A DNA stretch of 24,888 nt from a virus. Location: positions 1 to 24,888 of IMG/VR virus record IMGVR_UViG_3300037069_001462. One strand, 5' to 3'. Both the position numbers and the translations under genes were made by a program. The notes beneath the pieces were generated by a model that searched no databases, had not been told where the DNA came from, and was given only the letters and a program-made list of their open reading frames with translations. This document shows positions 924 through 23,990 of this stretch, one piece after another. Within the stretch, counting starts at the first letter, position 1; every line of letters starts with the position of its first letter.

Positions 924-1096
924 GCGGGAAGCCGCCGGCCGCGCCGTCCGACGGGCTGCCGACCGAGGCCGACGCCGATTGGTCCGACCCGGCATGGGAT
1001 GAGGCCGGGGAGCCGCTGCCGGGGGTGCCGGTCGACACGCCGGTACCGGCACGGCCGAGGCTGATCGATGATCCGCGGCAGATTCCGCTGCTGTGA
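920..1096 (+). CDS. Small acidic Pro-rich protein, unknown function
   Basis: A 58-residue reading frame with overlaps at both ends: its ATG lies in an ATGA overlap with the winged-helix gene, and its TGA overlaps the GTG start of the terminase. It is rich in Pro, Asp and Glu (for example DADWSDPAWDEAGEPLP) and ends DDPRQIPLL. No domain is recognised and it is probably largely disordered. The tight packing between two genes, leaving no spare bases, is the main reason to regard it as a real gene rather than a spacer. Confidence 0.55.
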   Translation: MSGKPPAAPSDGLPTEADADWSDPAWDEAGEPLPGVPVDTPVPARPRLIDDPRQIPLL

Positions 1097-3453
1097 GCGG
1101 GCAAGCGCCGACTGCGGCCGAGCTGGCGGCCAGCCGCAACGCGTTCGGGGTACTGCTGGCGCGCTATGCCCGCGATGCCCTGGCCTTCGTGCGCGAGGTG
1201 TTCGGCGCCGAGCCGGACGAATGGCAATGTCAGGCGCTCGATGCGCTGTCGCATGGCCAGACGCGCATTTCGATCCGCTCTGGACACGGTGTTGGAAAAG
1301 GTTGCGCACACGATACAATTGTGCCGACGCCGAAGGGCTTCCGCCGCTGGGGAGACCTCAAAGTGGGCGATGAGCTGTTCGGACGCGACGGCCGCCCGAC
1401 GCGCATCCGCGCGCGCTACGAGCGCGGCATTCTGCCGGTGTATCGCGTCACGCTCGATGACGGGACCAGCTGCGTTGTCGACGGCGACCATCTGTGGTCA
1501 TTGCGCGGTCGCAGCCAACGCGCCGTCGGCGAAGGCGGCGAACGCTGCGGCGATTTCGTCACGATTTCGACGGCCGCGTTGATGACGCGCGAAATCAAAC
1601 GCTCGAACGGCAAGGCTCTGGTGCGCCAGTGGGAGCTGCCGCGCATCCAGCCGGTCGAATACCCGCCGTGCAATCTCGCGTTCGATCCGTTCTGGCTGGG
1701 CAAATGGCTGGGCAACGGCGATTTGGAAGCGATCAAGCCGGGGCTGACCAATCTGGCCTGGCTGGGCCTCTCGCCCGACGGCCGTTATGTGCCGGACGCG
1801 TATCGGACGGCGCCCGTAGAGGCGCGCTACCGGCTGTTGCTGGGGCTGCTCGACACGGGCGGTTTCGCGGCCAGGGGCGCCGCGCAATTCATGTCGTCGT
1901 CGCAACCGCTGACCGAGTGCGTCGCCGAGCTGGTGCGGTCACTCGGCGGCAAGGCGGTCGTGTTCAATAGCGGCGTCGAACCGCCGGCCGACGGTCCCGG
2001 ACGCCCGCGCCGGCCGAAGCCGTATTACTCCGCGGAGCTGTGGCTGCCGCCGCCGTTCGCGCCGTTCATCAACCCCGAAAAGGCCGCGAAACTGAGCGGC
2101 GGCGAGCGGCATTTGGCGCGCTGGATCGAAAGCATCGAGCCGGCCGGCGAGGCGCGCGTGAGCTGCGTCACCGTGGCCGCCGCCGATGGGCTGTTCCTGG
2201 CGAACGATCACATTCCGACACATAATTCCACGATGCTGTCCTGGGTGATGGCGTGGTTTCTGCTCACGCGGTTTCCCTGCAAGATCATCGTCACCGCGCC
2301 GAGCGCGCCGCAGCTGTTCGACGCGCTGTGGGCCGAGCTGCGCGGCTGGATGAAGAAGCTGCCGGCCGCCTGGCAGGTGCTGCTGGATATTCAGTCAGAC
2401 CACATCTCATTGAAGGCGCGGCCAGACGAGGCGTTTATCAGCGCGCGAACCTCACGCGCCGAGAGTCCCGATAGTTTGCAGGGAGTCCACTCGCGCCACG
2501 TGCTGCTTGTGGTGGACGAAGCGGCCGGCGTGCCCGAACAGGTATTCGAGGCGGCCGGCGGCTCGATGTCGACGCCGGGGGCAATCACGATCCTCGCGGG
2601 AAATCCGACGCGCACGACAGGGTTCTTCTGGCGCACGCATAATCTTGAGGCGGCGCGGTGGTTCACGCTGCGGGTGTCCTGCCTGACCAGTCCGCGCGTC
2701 GACCCGGCATACTCCAAGGAAGTCGCAGAGCGTTACGGTATTGAAAGCAACCAATACCGCGTCCGCGTGCTGGGCGAATTCCCGCTGGCCGAGGGCGACA
2801 CGCTGATCCCGGCGGTGCTGGTCGAAGACGCGATGCGCCGGATGCCGGAAATCGATGACGCCGCGCCGGAGATTTGGGGCGTCGACGTCGCGCGCTTCGG
2901 TTCGGATTCATCGTGCCTGGTGAAGCGAAAAGGTTTCGTCATGCTTGAGCCGACGCGGCGCTGGCAGCAGCTCGACACGATGCAGCTGACCGGCGCGATC
3001 GTCTCGGAATTCAATTACGCGTCCAAATCCACGCCGCCGGCTGCCGTCGTGGTGGACGCTATCGGCATCGGCGCCGGGGTGGCCGATCGGCTGCGCGAGC
3101 TGGGCCTGCCGGCAATCGATGTCAACGTGGCCGAGAGTCCAAGCAGCGATCGGTTCGTGCGCCTGCGCGACGAATTGTGGCACGGCATTCGCGACTGGCT
3201 GGACAGCCGCAAAGCCTCGATGCCGTGGGACGACCAGCTGCGCGCCGAGCTATGCGCGCCGCGATACGGCTTCGCATCCGACGGGAAACTCAAAGTCGAG
3301 TCCAAGGACCAGCTGCGTAGCCGCGGCGTGCCATCGCCCGACAGCGCGGACGGTTTGGCTCTGACGCTGAGTCCGGCCGCCTATCTCGCCGCCGCTTATG
3401 GCGCGGCGCGGATGGGCAAACCGCTCCGCAGAAACATTCAAGGGATTGTGTGA
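1093..3453 (+). CDS. terL: Terminase large subunit (packaging ATPase/nuclease) interrupted by an intein
   Basis: The precursor has 786 residues and splices to about 478, a normal length for a large terminase. Exteins are residues 1-70 and 379-786; the intein is 71-378. The ATPase domain has the P-loop SGHGVGKG at 63-70, continued by S379-T380 after splicing, a Walker B strand LLVVDEAAG with D475 and E476, and a coupling motif LAGNPTRTTG at 501-510. The C-terminal RNase H-like nuclease has candidate metal ligands D598 (WGVDVARFG), D655 (VVVDAIGIG) and D753 (SADGLALTLS). It would dock on the portal, pump DNA into the prohead and cut concatemers. The GTG start overlaps the upstream stop and lacks a clear Shine-Dalgarno, suggesting translational coupling. 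The assignment is firm. Confidence 0.95.
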   Translation: MSGQAPTAAELAASRNAFGVLLARYARDALAFVREVFGAEPDEWQCQALDALSHGQTRISIRSGHGVGKGCAHDTIVPTPKGFRRWGDLKVGDELFGRDGRPTRIRARYERGILPVYRVTLDDGTSCVVDGDHLWSLRGRSQRAVGEGGERCGDFVTISTAALMTREIKRSNGKALVRQWELPRIQPVEYPPCNLAFDPFWLGKWLGNGDLEAIKPGLTNLAWLGLSPDGRYVPDAYRTAPVEARYRLLLGLLDTGGFAARGAAQFMSSSQPLTECVAELVRSLGGKAVVFNSGVEPPADGPGRPRRPKPYYSAELWLPPPFAPFINPEKAAKLSGGERHLARWIESIEPAGEARVSCVTVAAADGLFLANDHIPTHNSTMLSWVMAWFLLTRFPCKIIVTAPSAPQLFDALWAELRGWMKKLPAAWQVLLDIQSDHISLKARPDEAFISARTSRAESPDSLQGVHSRHVLLVVDEAAGVPEQVFEAAGGSMSTPGAITILAGNPTRTTGFFWRTHNLEAARWFTLRVSCLTSPRVDPAYSKEVAERYGIESNQYRVRVLGEFPLAEGDTLIPAVLVEDAMRRMPEIDDAAPEIWGVDVARFGSDSSCLVKRKGFVMLEPTRRWQQLDTMQLTGAIVSEFNYASKSTPPAAVVVDAIGIGAGVADRLRELGLPAIDVNVAESPSSDRFVRLRDELWHGIRDWLDSRKASMPWDDQLRAELCAPRYGFASDGKLKVESKDQLRSRGVPSPDSADGLALTLSPAAYLAAAYGAARMGKPLRRNIQGIV
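1303..2226 (+). mobile_element. In-frame intein (308 aa) in the terminase P-loop, with degenerate LAGLIDADG domain
   Basis: The intein begins at C71 (CAHDTIVPTPKG, splicing block A) and ends HN at 377-378, followed by S379 as the +1 nucleophile. Block B is near DGTSCVVDGDHLW with H133. Blocks F/G are near DGLFLANDHIPTHN. All residues needed for splicing are present. Between them is a LAGLIDADG-type homing-endonuclease remnant: motif one WLGKWLGNG (201-209) and motif two LLGLLDTGG (249-257). The eighth position of each motif, normally the metal-binding Asp, is Asn208 and Gly256. Only about 40 residues separate the motifs, which is short. The element probably still splices but can no longer home. 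Confidence 0.92.
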
Positions 3454-7790: not shown

Positions 7791-8024
7791 ATGCCCAACA
7801 CGCCGAGGCCGCAAGTTTGGGCGTGGATGCTGCTCGCGTTCGTCATCGTGTGCGGCATGGTGATCGCGTTCATCGCCGCGAGTATCTGCGTCTATGGCGT
7901 GGTGTGGGAACACACCGACCGCTGCAAGGACTTCGATCTGCGCGGTTGGATCGATGGCGTAATTTCCGCGCTGGTGGTGATGCTGACCGTCACGAAAAAA
8001 CCAGGGGGCGACAATGAACATTGA
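7791..8024 (+). CDS. Small membrane protein, likely holin
   Basis: A 77-residue protein with a strong hydrophobic segment at about residues 9-38 (AWMLLAFVIVCGMVIAFIAA within it) and a weaker one at about 52-67 (WIDGVISALVVMLTVT). The C-terminus is short and polar (KKPGGDNEH). AGGGG at 7781-7785 is five bases before the ATG. The gene overlaps the amidase gene by 11 bases. A small membrane protein beside an endolysin is the classic lysis pair, so it would form the inner-membrane lesion that releases the enzyme. No holin family motif is recognised, so the call rests on context and topology. Confidence 0.55.
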   Translation: MPNTPRPQVWAWMLLAFVIVCGMVIAFIAASICVYGVVWEHTDRCKDFDLRGWIDGVISALVVMLTVTKKPGGDNEH

Positions 8025-8403
8025 CGACGCCTGTTCTGCGCTGCGCGACAACGCCAAGCCGCAATCGACCGGCTACTGCGCCCGCCATGTCCGACAAGCG
8101 ATGGAAGCCGGCGGCCTGAACACCGAGGGCCGCCCGGTCGACGCGCGCGCCTACGGGCCTTTCCTCGCGCAGTCCGGCTTCCATTGCGCGGGAGCGAACG
8201 AGCTGCCCGCCGATCTGAAAGCCGGCGACATCATCGTTTTGCAGCCGTATCCCGGCGGCCATCCGTCCGGGCATATCGCGATGTACGACGGCGACCAATT
8301 TATCTCCGACTTCTGCCAGCGCGACCACTACGGCGGACCCGGCTTCCGCAACAATAAAGTCGCTTTCGAAGTCTATCGCTTCGGACCCGCGCCGACGGCC
8401 TAA
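8014..8403 (+). CDS. Endolysin: Cys/His peptidoglycan amidase or endopeptidase (CHAP/NlpC-P60-like)
   Basis: A 129-residue, single-domain enzyme. The catalytic Cys22 lies in STGYCARHVRQAMEAGG at the start of a helix; His87 lies in HPSGHIAMYDG, and a third polar residue may be D99 in FISDF. The order and spacing match papain-fold peptidoglycan amidases of the CHAP/NlpC-P60 group, including forms used by phages and by type VI amidase effectors. It has no signal peptide, so it should depend on the upstream holin-like protein. The start ATG 8014 has AGGGGG at 8003-8008. It would cut the peptide part of the host wall at lysis. The fold is well supported; the exact bond cleaved is unknown. Confidence 0.82.
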   Translation: MNIDDACSALRDNAKPQSTGYCARHVRQAMEAGGLNTEGRPVDARAYGPFLAQSGFHCAGANELPADLKAGDIIVLQPYPGGHPSGHIAMYDGDQFISDFCQRDHYGGPGFRNNKVAFEVYRFGPAPTA

Positions 8404-8444: not shown

Positions 8445-10154
8445 ATGGCAACCCCACTTCCGCCGACCATCCGAATCTTCGGCACCTATACCGACGCCGG
8501 AGACGGCTGGAATTTCGACGGCAACAACGACACCGCCCTGGTCGACTACATGCGCGACGTGATCGCGCCGCAGGCCGGCGGCGTCGTGCCGAACGCCTAT
8601 GACCTCTTTGCGGCATGGGGGACGCCGTACGATTTCGGCCCGAATATGAGCTGGAGCGTCTGGAATATGATGTCAGCCGGCTTTGTCGGCATCCCGATTG
8701 TTTCGTATCGCCCGCATAACGGGGATTCGAACCCTTATGGATGGAACGACACGCAAGCCCTGGTCGACTATGCCGATGGCAAATTCGACCAGACGCTGAC
8801 CAACATGATTGACGGCATCTACGAGTCGGGTTGTCGGTTCGTCATCTTTCGTTTCGCATACGAATACAATTTCGATTTTATGCCGTACGCGATGGGCTGG
8901 GATTCCGACAAGCAACAGAAATGGAAGGCGATGATGGAACACGTGTTCCGTCTCACGCGCGATTATGCCGCTGCGACCTATCCCGATCTTGTCTGGCTGA
9001 ATGCCTTGTGCTCCGCGATGGGCCGCGGCGGTCAGCCGGCTATGAGCGTGGTTCCTGATCCGGCGCTGTGGGACATCCTCGCGCCGGATTTTTACGGCAC
9101 TTATTACGGGGACGGCGACAAGCAGAATCCCGATCATCGCAAGGACTTTTGGCACAACGGCGCGAGCGGTTACGAAAATCCATGGACTGCGATCACGCAA
9201 CAGGCGCTGGACCTTGGCAAGCCGTTGATGCTGTCGGAAAGCGGCTGCGGCGGGCCGGATGGCGTTCACAACGACGAACATTGGATCGACTGGCTCGCCG
9301 ATCGCGTCGTGGAATTCCGCGCCAAAGGCGGCCGGTGGTGGGGGTTCTGTAAGTGGGATATCAGCCCCGGCGATGGCAGCTGGCGCTGGTCCGATGGCAC
9401 GCAACCGGCGCTTGGCGAGGCGCTTGGTCGCCGCATCGGCGATCTGCTCGGCGACGAAATCAGCACGACCAATCCGCTCGGCGACGTGATCGATCCGCCC
9501 GACCCGGTGGACCCGCCCGTGGAACCGCCGATTGACCCGCCGGCCAGCGTCGAACCGTCGCCGGACGGGACCACGGCGACCGCGCCCGGCCTGGTGCTCT
9601 ACAGCGCCGGAGGGAACAGCTTCGAGCTGGTCGAGCTGGACAACGCGGACGCGGATTACGGCATCGCCTATAACGGCGCGCACGACCCGGCCACGCATGA
9701 CGTCGACACGCTCTACGCCCAAGGCGGCGTGATCTATCAGCAAGCCAGCGGCTGGTGGTACGCCAGCGACGATCGCGGCGGCTGGGCCGGCGCGGATGAT
9801 CCGACCGCTGGACCCGTCGACCCGCCCGTGGAACCGCCCGTGGAACCGCCCGTGGAACCGCCGCCCGTGGATCCGAGCAATCCGAGCATCGAGATTCCGA
9901 TTGCGCCGCCACCCGGCGCGACGGATGCGGTCTATGTGACCGAGGCGCTGACCAAGCCGAGCAACTTCGTGTCCGTCAACGACATCTCGAAATGGCTCGG
10001 CGCGTCGCAGAAAACGCCGATCAACACGTATATCGGCAATACGGTTTACGATGTCGTCGGCTCGAAACAGGAAGGCAGCCAGTACGGGCTGCAATGCGGG
10101 GTGAAGGTGCAGCCGCCCGATGCACAGCTCAACTCGCCCGTCAGACTGGCCTAG
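8445..10154 (+). CDS. GH26-like glycoside hydrolase with Pro-rich linkers (possible depolymerase)
   Basis: A 569-residue multidomain protein. Residues 1-335 look like a clan GH-A barrel closest to family GH26 (beta-mannanases and relatives): [11 protein letters not shown] (87-97), then DGKFDQTL (111-118), strand [12 protein letters not shown] with E140 as candidate acid/base, and [13 protein letters not shown] with E266 as candidate nucleophile. Linkers of VDPPVEPP type (about 350-368 and 456-480) flank an ~85-residue domain with Trp/Tyr pairs ([15 protein letters not shown]), perhaps carbohydrate-binding. The last ~75 residues are unrecognised. AAGGA at 8434-8438 precedes the ATG and there is no signal peptide. 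It may degrade a host capsule or exopolysaccharide, either in the virion or after lysis. The substrate is unknown. Confidence 0.65.
9822..9857 (+). repeat. Three perfect 12-bp tandem repeats coding for PPVE
   Basis: CCGCCCGTGGAA is repeated exactly three times in a row (9822-9833, 9834-9845, 9846-9857), with a diverged further copy after it and a related single copy near 9511-9525. It encodes the second Pro-rich linker of the glycosidase. Exact copies at the DNA level point to recent slippage, so linker length probably varies between relatives. Confidence 0.85.
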
Positions 10155-20896: not shown

Positions 20897-21229
20897 ATGG
20901 CAGCACTCGGCTACGGACCCGCGCCCGATTTCACCAATTACGGGCCGGATATGTCGGACATGCCGACGGCCACGCCGATGGATTGGTCGAAGGTGGCCAC
21001 GGCGCTGAAAAGTCTCGGCGGTGTCGGCGCGCCCGGCGGTGTCGGCGGCTCGCCCGGCGGCGGCTACGGCACCAGCGACGCCAACTACTTGCGCATCGGC
21101 AATCCCGGCCAGGCGTTTTCGCCGGGGATGCCGCCGACCTTGCTGGCGACGCTGCTGCAAATGCACAACGCAGCCCTGGCCGCGCAACAGCCGCAATACG
21201 GCGCGCCGCGCGCCTCCTTGCTGGGATAG
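20897..21229 (+). CDS. Small Gly-rich protein, unknown function
   Basis: A 110-residue protein directly after the previous stop, with GGGGAG at 20884-20889 seven bases before its ATG. The middle is low-complexity Gly/Pro (GGVGAPGGVGGSPGGG), flanked by a short helical piece (LLATLLQMHNAALAAQQ). No family is recognised. It is likely a small virion protein of the ejection module. Confidence 0.5.
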   Translation: MAALGYGPAPDFTNYGPDMSDMPTATPMDWSKVATALKSLGGVGAPGGVGGSPGGGYGTSDANYLRIGNPGQAFSPGMPPTLLATLLQMHNAALAAQQPQYGAPRASLLG

Positions 21230-21233
21230 GCGC

Positions 21234-23990
21234 ATGGCCGGCCTGCTCGAATCCGACGACCCCGTTCTGTCGCTGCTGTCAGGCGTGTTTTCCGGCGGCC
21301 TGGCCGGGCGGCCGAACGCCGACGGCAGCATGACGCCGGGCGGAAGGCAGGCGAGTATCGACGCGCTGATGGCGGCCGGCGGGACGCTGGCCAATGCGGC
21401 GGCGCCCGGCTTCGGGCCGCGCCCGACCATCCTGCAGGGCATCACGTCCGCCATGAGTGCCGGCCAGCAAGCGGCCTATGGGGAGCAACAGCGCGAACAG
21501 AGCGCGACCATCCTGCAGCAAGCCGGCCTGGACGCGCAGATGCGGCGGAACATCCTGCAGCGCCAGCTCGAAATGCAGGATCTGGCGCAGCGGATGATTC
21601 TGCAGTCGCTGGGCGGCCGTCCGGGCGGCATGACGCCGGCCGCGCCGACGCCGGGCGCCACGCCGGGCGCCGCGCCGGCCGGCTTCAACGACGCGCCCGG
21701 GTACGTGCCCGGTGCTTCGGTGCAGTCCGCGCTGCTGCAGAGCGAGTCGGGCGGCGGCTATGGCGCGCGCAATTCCGCCGGCTATCTCGGCGGCTATCAG
21801 CTCGGGACCGGCCTGGCATCCGACGCCGGCCTGTATGCCCCGGCGACCGGCGAGGATCTGACGAAAAACCAGTGGGCCGGCAGCTTCAAGATCCCCGGTT
21901 TCGAGAACGTCAAGACGGCGGCGGATTTTCAGGCCAATCCGGCGGCGCAAGACGCGGCCTATCGCATCGCCATGGGCCATCTCGACGGCCGGCTGCGCAG
22001 CATGGGCATTTACGATCGCGCGCAGGCACGCGGTTCGATCGGCGGCGTCAACCTCACGCGCGACGGCTTGCTGGCGGGCGCCTGGCTGGGCGGCCCCGGC
22101 GGCGTGCGCGACTGGATCGATCACGGCACCGATGCGACCGATAGCAACGGCACGCCGGTTTCGCGCTGGGCCGCGCTGGCGCCGGGTGCGAAGGGCGCGC
22201 CGGCCGTTGGGCCGGCCGCAGCTCCGGCCGGTGCTCCGGCGCCCGCCGTCGCCGCCAACGACACGGGCAACCCGCCGCCGAATCCCGCCCTGCTGGCCGG
22301 GCCTGGCGCCCCCGACGTGGCGCCGGCGGTGCGGCCCACGACCGGCCCATGGACGCCGCCAGGCGCGCCGCAGACGGCGCAGGGCGGCCCGCCGCCGACG
22401 CTGCCGAGCAACGCGCCGGCCGACGGCAACCCGCTCAATCGCTTTAGCCAGCAGCAGCTGCTTTCGGTGCTCATGCTGCCGCCGGAAAAGCGCGGCCAGG
22501 CGCTGTTCGAATTGTCGAAACAAGTGCCGAACCACATCACGCTGGCGAACCCGGCGGATGGCGGAAAGCCATGGATGTACGAAGTGCAGCCGGGCGGGCA
22601 GAAAATCCCGATCGGCCCCGCGCCTTCGCAACTCGATACCGTCGACGTGCAAGGCCAGGACGGCAAAAACTATCGCTACGTGCGCAACCCGGATGGCACG
22701 CCGGGCAAGCAGATCGGCCTGTCGCCGACGCAGCAGCAGCTCGATACGGTCGACGTGCGCGACCCTACCGACGGCCAGACCTACCGCTATCAGAAAAGGC
22801 CGGACGGCACGCCCGGCGTCAAAATCGGCCTATCCCCGGTGCAGCCGCAGCTCGAGACGGTCGACGTGCAGGACGCGGACGGCTTCAACTATCGCTACGT
22901 GCGCAATCCGAACGGCACGGCGGGCACCAAGCTGGGCCTGTCCCCGGTGCAGCAGCAGCACGAGACGGTCGACGTGCAGGGGGAGGATGGCCGCAATTAC
23001 CGCTACGCGCGCAACACCGATGGATCGCAGGGCAAGTTGCTCGGCCTGTCCCCGGTGCAGCAGATGCTCGACACGATCGATGTGCAGGACAAGGACGGCC
23101 GCAATTACCGCTACGCGCGCAAGCCGGACGGCACCGCCGGGCCGCTGATCGGCCTGTCCCCCGTCCAGCAACAGCGCGAAACTGTCGACGTGCAAGCGCC
23201 GGACGGCCGCAATTACCGCTTCGTGCGCAACCCGGACGGAACGCAGGGCAAGCTGCTCGGCCTGGCGCCGGTCCCGCCCGAAGGCCAGCTGCTTTCGCCG
23301 GAAGTGGAAGCGCAACGGCGCCGCCTGGCGCTGGCGGCGTCCGGCGACGAATTCGATAAGACGTTGGCGAAGAACACCGCCGATCGGGTGCAGAGCAACC
23401 TGACCAATCGGGACACGGCGAACGCGATGCGCAGCCAGCTCGACCAGCTCGACTCGGTGATGCAGACCTATCGCACGAACGCGGCGGCCGGGATCCAAAA
23501 GACGATCGGTGAATACGGCGCCGCCGCGGGCCTGGACCTCTCCGGCATCATCCCCGGCACGTCGCCCAAGGATGCGATGAATGCCGAAGTGTTCGGCAAG
23601 ATCGCGAACGGCCTGGTCATGCGACTCCTTGGCGGCAAGGCGGGCGAGGGCTTCCCCAGCAACAACTTCTCCGACGCTGACCGCTCGTTTCTGTCCGACA
23701 CGATGCCGAGCCTCACGAACCGGCCGGAGGCAAACCAAGTCATCTCCGCATTCCTGCGCGCGCAAGCGCAACGCAACATCGACAAGGCGGGCGCCATGGA
23801 GGCGTATCCCGACCAGTCCGCGATCGGAATGCGCAGATTCGAAAGCGAGTGGCAGAAGAAGCTCAACGACGCGCCGTTGGTGCGCAACGTCAAGACGCTT
23901 GAAGACATGAACGCGCTGCCGCCGGGCACGATTTGGCACCGCACCGGCAGCCAGAGTTACGGCGTGGTGCCGCGGGTGCCGACGCAATGA
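21234..23990 (+). CDS. Large internal virion protein: lysozyme-like domain plus tandem 36-aa repeats
   Basis: A 918-residue protein in several parts. Residues 1-130 are helical. Residues ~163-315 resemble a virion lysozyme/transglycosylase: LLQSESGGGYGARNS with candidate catalytic E171, YLGGYQLGTG, NPAAQDAAYRIA, and GLLAGAWLGGPGGV. A Pro/Ala-rich linker runs from ~316 to 430. Six tandem repeats of 36-37 residues follow (467-683) with core TVDVQ..DGRNYRY.RNPDGT..GLSPVQQQ, and a diverged seventh copy just before. The last ~230 residues are helical. It is likely a peptidoglycan-opening ejection protein; the repeats may bind a partner or form an elongated channel. ATG 21234 is chosen by position after the previous stop. 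Confidence 0.75.
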   Translation: MAGLLESDDPVLSLLSGVFSGGLAGRPNADGSMTPGGRQASIDALMAAGGTLANAAAPGFGPRPTILQGITSAMSAGQQAAYGEQQREQSATILQQAGLDAQMRRNILQRQLEMQDLAQRMILQSLGGRPGGMTPAAPTPGATPGAAPAGFNDAPGYVPGASVQSALLQSESGGGYGARNSAGYLGGYQLGTGLASDAGLYAPATGEDLTKNQWAGSFKIPGFENVKTAADFQANPAAQDAAYRIAMGHLDGRLRSMGIYDRAQARGSIGGVNLTRDGLLAGAWLGGPGGVRDWIDHGTDATDSNGTPVSRWAALAPGAKGAPAVGPAAAPAGAPAPAVAANDTGNPPPNPALLAGPGAPDVAPAVRPTTGPWTPPGAPQTAQGGPPPTLPSNAPADGNPLNRFSQQQLLSVLMLPPEKRGQALFELSKQVPNHITLANPADGGKPWMYEVQPGGQKIPIGPAPSQLDTVDVQGQDGKNYRYVRNPDGTPGKQIGLSPTQQQLDTVDVRDPTDGQTYRYQKRPDGTPGVKIGLSPVQPQLETVDVQDADGFNYRYVRNPNGTAGTKLGLSPVQQQHETVDVQGEDGRNYRYARNTDGSQGKLLGLSPVQQMLDTIDVQDKDGRNYRYARKPDGTAGPLIGLSPVQQQRETVDVQAPDGRNYRFVRNPDGTQGKLLGLAPVPPEGQLLSPEVEAQRRRLALAASGDEFDKTLAKNTADRVQSNLTNRDTANAMRSQLDQLDSVMQTYRTNAAAGIQKTIGEYGAAAGLDLSGIIPGTSPKDAMNAEVFGKIANGLVMRLLGGKAGEGFPSNNFSDADRSFLSDTMPSLTNRPEANQVISAFLRAQAQRNIDKAGAMEAYPDQSAIGMRRFESEWQKKLNDAPLVRNVKTLEDMNALPPGTIWHRTGSQSYGVVPRVPTQ
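22632..23282 (+). repeat. Six tandem 36-37-codon repeats
   Basis: Units begin at codons 467, 503, 540, 576, 612 and 648 of the large virion protein (22632, 22740, 22851, 22959, 23067, 23175). Unit two has 37 codons, the others 36. Conserved positions include TVDV, DG, YRY, the R-x-P-D-G-T turn and GLSPVQQQ. DNA divergence between units is moderate, so the array is old enough to drift but still in register. A weaker copy precedes it (22534-22631). Confidence 0.92.

Follow-up and report, generated by a model that had tools for sequence, protein, structure and literature searches.

A predicted class 3 intein with a degenerate LAGLIDADG endonuclease in the P-loop of a phage large terminase

Introduction

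Inteins of class 3 are without an N-terminal nucleophile, and their splicing is initiated by a cysteine in block F; the class is defined by a triplet (WCT) of a block B tryptophan, a block F cysteine and a block G threonine (PMC7664689, PMC7891396, PMC5050341). Terminase inteins inserted in the P-loop are already known (PMC5050341). A published survey of 1,701 class 3 inteins found LAGLIDADG motifs in 82.5% and none in the remaining 17.5% (PMC7891396). The homing cycle leads one to expect inteins whose endonucleases have degenerated (PMC1654191, PMC8966425), and recombination with an empty allele has been described as a way in which an intein can be precisely lost (PMC1654191). Here we examine an intein in the large terminase of an uncultured phage, its borders, its splicing class and the state of its endonuclease, and compare it with these systems.

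Results

The window (the whole stretch of DNA that was analysed) is a 24,888-base IMG/VR virus record, a single uncultured contig and the sole isolate. A reading frame on the plus strand (1093-3453, GTG start) encodes 786 residues without interruption and specifies, as proposed in the initial annotation, a large terminase whose Walker A motif is interrupted by an intein. The C-terminal part of this protein matches phrog_2 (terminase large subunit, E 3.1e-34), and genes for an SU10-type portal (E 1.6e-161), a scaffold, an SU10-type major capsid protein (E 7e-68) and adaptors lie downstream, so that both TerL homology and the context of packaging genes are present.

Three other reading frames were noted in the window. 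Within the head gene module there is a small endolysin-like frame (8014-8403; phrog_38472, E 2.4e-10), and between this gene and the capsid region lies a frame of 569 aa (8445-10154) that has no Pfam or PHROG match and looks glycoside hydrolase-like by eye. A frame of 989 aa (21021-23990) contains about six tandem repeats of 108 bp (36 aa) at 22628-23272, with a repeat unit of approximately DTVDVQDxDGRNYRYVRNPDGTPGKxIGLSPVQQQ and no clear Pfam match.

The borders of the intein were set by comparison with terminases that lack it. A scan with the C-extein produced 80 terminase loci, which served as the empty-site set, and none of the 80 has an intein at this site. In all 79 intein-free terminases with the junction aligned, it reads GK-S or GK-T (the hyphen marks the junction); in the 80th (L026) the match begins downstream of the junction, and the P-loop is still uninterrupted (GHGIGKTK). 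The closest terminases (L020-L025), approximately 69-71% identical to that of the window, are intein-free, and both DNA flanks of the intein align to the empty sites without gaps. The junctions in the window read SGHGVGK-GCAHDTIV and IPTHN-STMLSW. Given the sequence at the empty sites, the intein must start at Gly70 of the precursor (nt 1300) and runs to Asn378, leaving a predicted ligated junction of SGHGVGK-STML and a predicted spliced product of 477 aa. The start had previously been placed one codon further on, at nt 1303, with an expected product of ~478 residues, and both figures are corrected here (Table 1). By tblastn, 413 phage records contain relatives that span 80% or more of the intein, and hence no part of the observation is plausibly due to chance.

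Table 1. Positions of the terminase exteins, the intein and its predicted functional residues in the window.
Feature	Position	Strand	Basis
N-extein of large terminase, ends SGHGVGK (Walker A Lys69)	1093..1299	+	Junction set by 79 aligned intein-free relatives, GK-S or GK-T
Predicted class 3 intein, 309 aa, Gly1 to Asn309	1300..2226	+	Empty-site border, conserved residues, AF2 model, DnaB intein fold match
Cys2 of intein (precursor C71), not a conserved nucleophile	1303..1305	+	Cys here only in the window
Block B His64-Leu65-Trp66 (W of the WCT triplet; catalytic His)	1489..1497	+	H64 and W66 in 83/83
First LAGLIDADG helix (H130-139), Asp to Asn139 (codon 1714-1716)	1687..1716	+	PI-SceI D218; D in 73/83
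Internal deletion site, ~34-37 residues of relatives absent after residue 140	1717..1722	+	Alignment; models of L100 and the window intein
Second LAGLIDADG helix (H173-187), Asp to Gly187 (codon 1858-1860)	1816..1860	+	PI-SceI D326; D in 77/83
Block F Cys289, predicted class 3 branch-point nucleophile	2164..2166	+	83/83; aligns with block F Cys of 6rix and 6bs8
Block G Thr307-His308-Asn309 (T of WCT, penultimate His, terminal Asn)	2218..2226	+	83/83
C-extein of large terminase (rest of ATPase and nuclease), +1 Ser, stop included	2227..3453	+	phrog_2; intein-free relatives ~71% identical

The position of the border bears on the splicing class. If the intein started at Cys71, which had been taken for the first nucleophile, it would be a class 1 intein with this cysteine making the first N-S acyl shift; Cys71 adjoins the junction, and the histidine, the His-Asn pair and the serine at +1 are also compatible with such a mechanism. 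However, a start at Cys71 would leave GKGS, with an extra glycine that occurs in the P-loop of none of the 80 relatives, and would therefore break the P-loop, so that a Cys or Ser as first intein residue and an intact extein after splicing are not found together here. We compared 83 distinct intein sequences, that of the window included, from viral contigs, bacterial genomes and phages, and only in the window is there a cysteine at intein position 2. In the 76 inteins that could be read at this point, the first residue after the P-loop lysine is alanine (45) or glycine (13), with L, E, V, Q and M also present, serine in two and cysteine in none. As the full WCT triplet, the mark of class 3, is present as well, we regard the class 1 reading as highly improbable.

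By its residues, the window intein is a class 3 intein with no N-terminal Cys/Ser nucleophile. It has a non-nucleophilic Gly1, tryptophan at block B position 12 (W66), cysteine at block F position 4 (C289) and threonine at block G position 5, with His-Asn next and then a serine at +1. Six residues (H64, W66, C289, T307, H308 and N309) are invariant in 83/83 sequences, an invariance that is partly by construction for T307, H308 and N309 since THN formed part of one retrieval pattern; H64 and W66 were in only one of the six peptide patterns used for retrieval and C289 was in none. These comparisons support the retention of every splicing-site residue. Five positions of the splicing domain that are conserved in relatives are altered in the window (F52L, V68L, R75A, Y271H and F304H), which could slow or impair splicing.

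The closest solved structures by sequence are mycobacterial class 3 DnaB inteins (6rix, 6riy and 6bs8; E 3.5e-12 to 1.3e-11). An AlphaFold2 (AF2) model of the window intein (mean pLDDT 86.7) has a predicted Hint fold when set against 6bs8, which is also the tightest fold match (Z 19.9, rmsd 1.5 over 123 residues, 37% identity), and matches PI-SceI over its whole length (Z 21.7, 291 residues). No Pfam family matched the window intein at E 0.01, and at E up to 1 there was only a sub-threshold match to Hint_2 (E 0.12).

The LAGLIDADG motifs of the window intein read WLGKWLGNG and LLGLLDTGG, while those of relatives read LGxWLGDG and LxGLLDTDG. When a profile of 15 inteins is aligned to PI-SceI, D218 falls in the final acidic column of block C and D326 in that of block E. 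Asp218 and Asp326 are the catalytic aspartates of PI-SceI. Asn139 and Gly187 of the window intein occupy these two positions, and neither helix has an acidic residue there. The loss of both aspartates, as originally described, is thus upheld, and a search for an intact aspartate at either catalytic position, in the alignment of 83 inteins and in the PI-SceI profile alignment, found none left in the window. The block C column of the 83 inteins contains D in 73, N in 8, E in 1 and R in 1, and that of block E contains D in 77, N in 3, G in 2 and H in 1; both aspartates are gone only in the window and in one other sequence (L017). The short spacing between the motifs was also borne out: blocks C and E are 48 residues apart in the window as against 74-104 in 79/83 sequences, the others being L017 (33), L182 (55) and L116 (63).

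Of the 37 alignment columns missing from the window intein, the majority follow directly after residue 140. A model of an intact sister intein (L100; mean pLDDT 91.9) has four strands between the LAGLIDADG helices (E140-143, E146-151, E174-176 and E179-184), whereas inspection of the window model revealed no strands between these helices, and hence no two-half alpha-beta-beta-alpha-beta-beta-alpha arrangement. As all four strands of L100 are absent, the first DNA-binding beta-sheet of the endonuclease is gone in the modelled structure, and with it half of the surface that would bind DNA. Pfam LAGLIDADG_3 recognises 13/15 of the aligned inteins and does not recognise that of the window, and a scan with the 64-aa segment from block C to block E yielded no closer relatives with the same deletion.

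It could be argued that the endonuclease is non-canonical and still active, or still binds DNA, or is complemented in trans, as replacement of the block C aspartate alone by asparagine is seen in 8/83 sequences. Against this, the window intein has lost both aspartates and a whole DNA-binding sheet, and LAGLIDADG_3, in a search whose positive controls worked, had no match elsewhere in the record, a 24.9-kb fragment. We therefore consider retained or complemented activity to be extremely improbable; the homing endonuclease is almost certainly dead and is predicted, from the alignments and the model, to be unable to cut.

The remnant of the endonuclease keeps 9/11 and 12/14 of the positions that are fixed in relatives and, except for loops, is modelled confidently by AF2. 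These features would fit a remnant that is kept as a scaffold for the splicing domain (HINT-HEN mutualism), as in TliVMA, for which the same dependence has been reported (PMC8966425), and the endonuclease-dead helicase inteins L017 and Cp1R7A-A1, 62% identical to each other, also keep a remnant. Nevertheless, class 3 DnaB inteins of ~140 aa splice without any endonuclease (PMC6195587, PMC7664689), so this dependence is not general, and a recent inactivation would look alike. A scaffold role is compatible with a fossil endonuclease, to which it would add a reason for the remnant, and we hold it as a tentative and rather doubtful addition.

Preferential decay of the endonuclease half was considered separately. 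Against L100-L102, the splicing halves of the window intein are 56-75% identical and its endonuclease remnant is 30-39% identical; the same contrast exists between pairs of intact inteins (81-92% in the splicing halves and 42-71% in the endonuclease). A rough correction gave a similar excess in all regions, and relaxed selection in the endonuclease half alone was not demonstrated.

In the intein tree, the window intein is sister to L100-L102 (support 99/99), which occupy the same insertion site in the same terminase subfamily. In the terminase tree, the window clusters with three terminases that lack an intein (L020, L021 and L025; 99/98), and a neighbouring group combines L100 and L101, which have one, with L064 and L026, which do not. 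Presence on the trees is thus patchy, through either an old intein that was lost several times or repeated homing. The branch of the window intein is long (1.48, versus 0.23-0.43 for its sisters), whereas that of its terminase is ordinary (0.20). Endonuclease loss in L017 and in L182 is separate from that in the window on the intein tree. The 62% identity between the dead helicase forms L017 and L187 (from Mesorhizobium phage Cp1R7A-A1) indicates that such forms can be passed on over long periods.

Some further inteins deserve mention in their own right. L182, from Lentzea xinjiangensis, is a class 3 intein of 290 aa with glycine for the block E aspartate and a shortened endonuclease; its relatives L183 and L184, which share its location, are intact. 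In the TerL intein of Clavibacter phage CN1A (L186), a spacing of 52 is combined with both aspartates, and it appears possible for the sheet to be lost before the acids. Several RefSeq terminases and helicases that bear inteins (e.g., NC_054727, NC_054716 and NC_023549) are named 'DarB-like antirestriction' or 'exonuclease', and the original GenBank records give terminase or helicase; these names may have been transferred via the common intein.

Discussion

We consider it very probable that the window contains a class 3, cis-splicing P-loop intein of TerL with a fossil endonuclease, which is inherited with its gene. The insertion lies between the Walker A lysine and the following serine of a phage large terminase, at the 'classic' P-loop site. 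According to a splicing chemistry borrowed from class 3 studies, Cys289 of block F would attack the carbonyl of Lys69, at the Lys69-Gly70 bond, producing a branched thioester, which would then be attacked by the serine at +1, taking over the N-extein. Cyclisation of Asn309 and an acyl shift would complete the reaction, with the exteins ligated as GVGK-STML in the 477-aa terminase. The endonuclease, with both metal-binding aspartates gone and the first DNA-binding beta-sheet apparently deleted, would neither cut nor home.

With an endonuclease that is predicted not to cut, the intein would persist only together with its gene, and such vertical inheritance is to be expected, since mis-splicing would cost the packaging motor its ATP site. 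The initial annotation went further and held that the intein cannot be lost. This is too strong, as the closest terminases have a clean empty site.

It was also suggested that the intein, having stopped homing, serves as a splicing-dependent switch on the terminase, such that splicing and hence packaging wait for a signal. P-loop inteins do block ATPase function until they are spliced, and there is a precedent in the class 3 P-loop DnaB mini-intein of M. smegmatis, which is reversibly inhibited by H2O2 (PMC6195587), oxidation joining its Cys48 and Cys118 (PMC6195587). The catalytic Cys289 and a further cysteine, C58, are present in the splicing domain of the window intein. However, the position of the partner Cys48 of DnaBi1 is occupied by Val47 in the window, so the redox pair of the MsmDnaBi1 type is missing, and C58 is common to sister inteins with intact endonucleases and is thus unconnected with the loss of homing. 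In addition, mycobacteriophage terminase inteins spliced quickly when tested in a reporter (PMC5050341), and the nearest terminases have no intein. We found no positive evidence for a switch and regard one as very unlikely; it is very unlikely indeed that the homing-dead intein acts as a timer or sensor of the packaging motor through conditional class 3 splicing with a trigger other than the Cys48-Cys118 disulfide of DnaB. The switch reading would, if true, matter more than the fossil endonuclease, but nothing here favours it.

With a fossil endonuclease as the preferred reading, the locus provides a snapshot of degeneration within the homing cycle, in a packaging motor: the acids and, in the model, one sheet have gone, the splicing residues are untouched, and the insertion site is occupied by sister inteins that are intact and stands empty in the nearest terminases. 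By analogy with described homing cycles, the window intein is at the degeneration stage. It also illustrates a trap for readers of sequence, as a chance cysteine by the junction gives a class 3 intein the look of class 1 and moves the border by one codon.

The nearest known counterparts are class 3 TerL inteins found in phages and prophages, among them those of Salmonella phage 66FD and Clavibacter phage CN1A and the sisters L100-L102 from viral contigs, which share the host protein, the P-loop site between K and S/T and the WCT residues. Identity to the window intein is 41-43% for L100/L101 and 34% for 66FD. Unlike the window intein, the five named here all retain both aspartates, and L100-L102 retain the first DNA-binding sheet; the CN1A intein has a deletion similar to that of the window but still has both aspartates. 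The helicase inteins of L017 and Cp1R7A-A1 resemble the window intein in being class 3 P-loop inteins with both aspartates lost and a shortened endonuclease, but they differ in host protein, and their decay is independent on the tree. The DnaB inteins of M. smegmatis and M. chimaera (6bs8 and 6rix) share the class 3 splicing domain, the P-loop site and the want of a working endonuclease; in these, however, the endonuclease is wholly lost, the host is DnaB, and the redox Cys48 is present where the window has valine. A parallel outside class 3 is PhoVMA (7qst), in which the LAGLIDADG endonuclease has lost an active-site aspartate and part of the DNA-binding sheets and splicing is retained (PMC8966425). 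Its host is the VMA ATPase, and it is not a class 3 phage terminase intein. PI-SceI matches the window model in fold over the whole length but has an active endonuclease with two aspartates. Splicing of PI-SceI is of class 1. Going by the published survey, a working endonuclease is lacking in a minority of class 3 inteins, a well-known state, and in the light of these systems the window intein is, on its predicted features, mostly ordinary.
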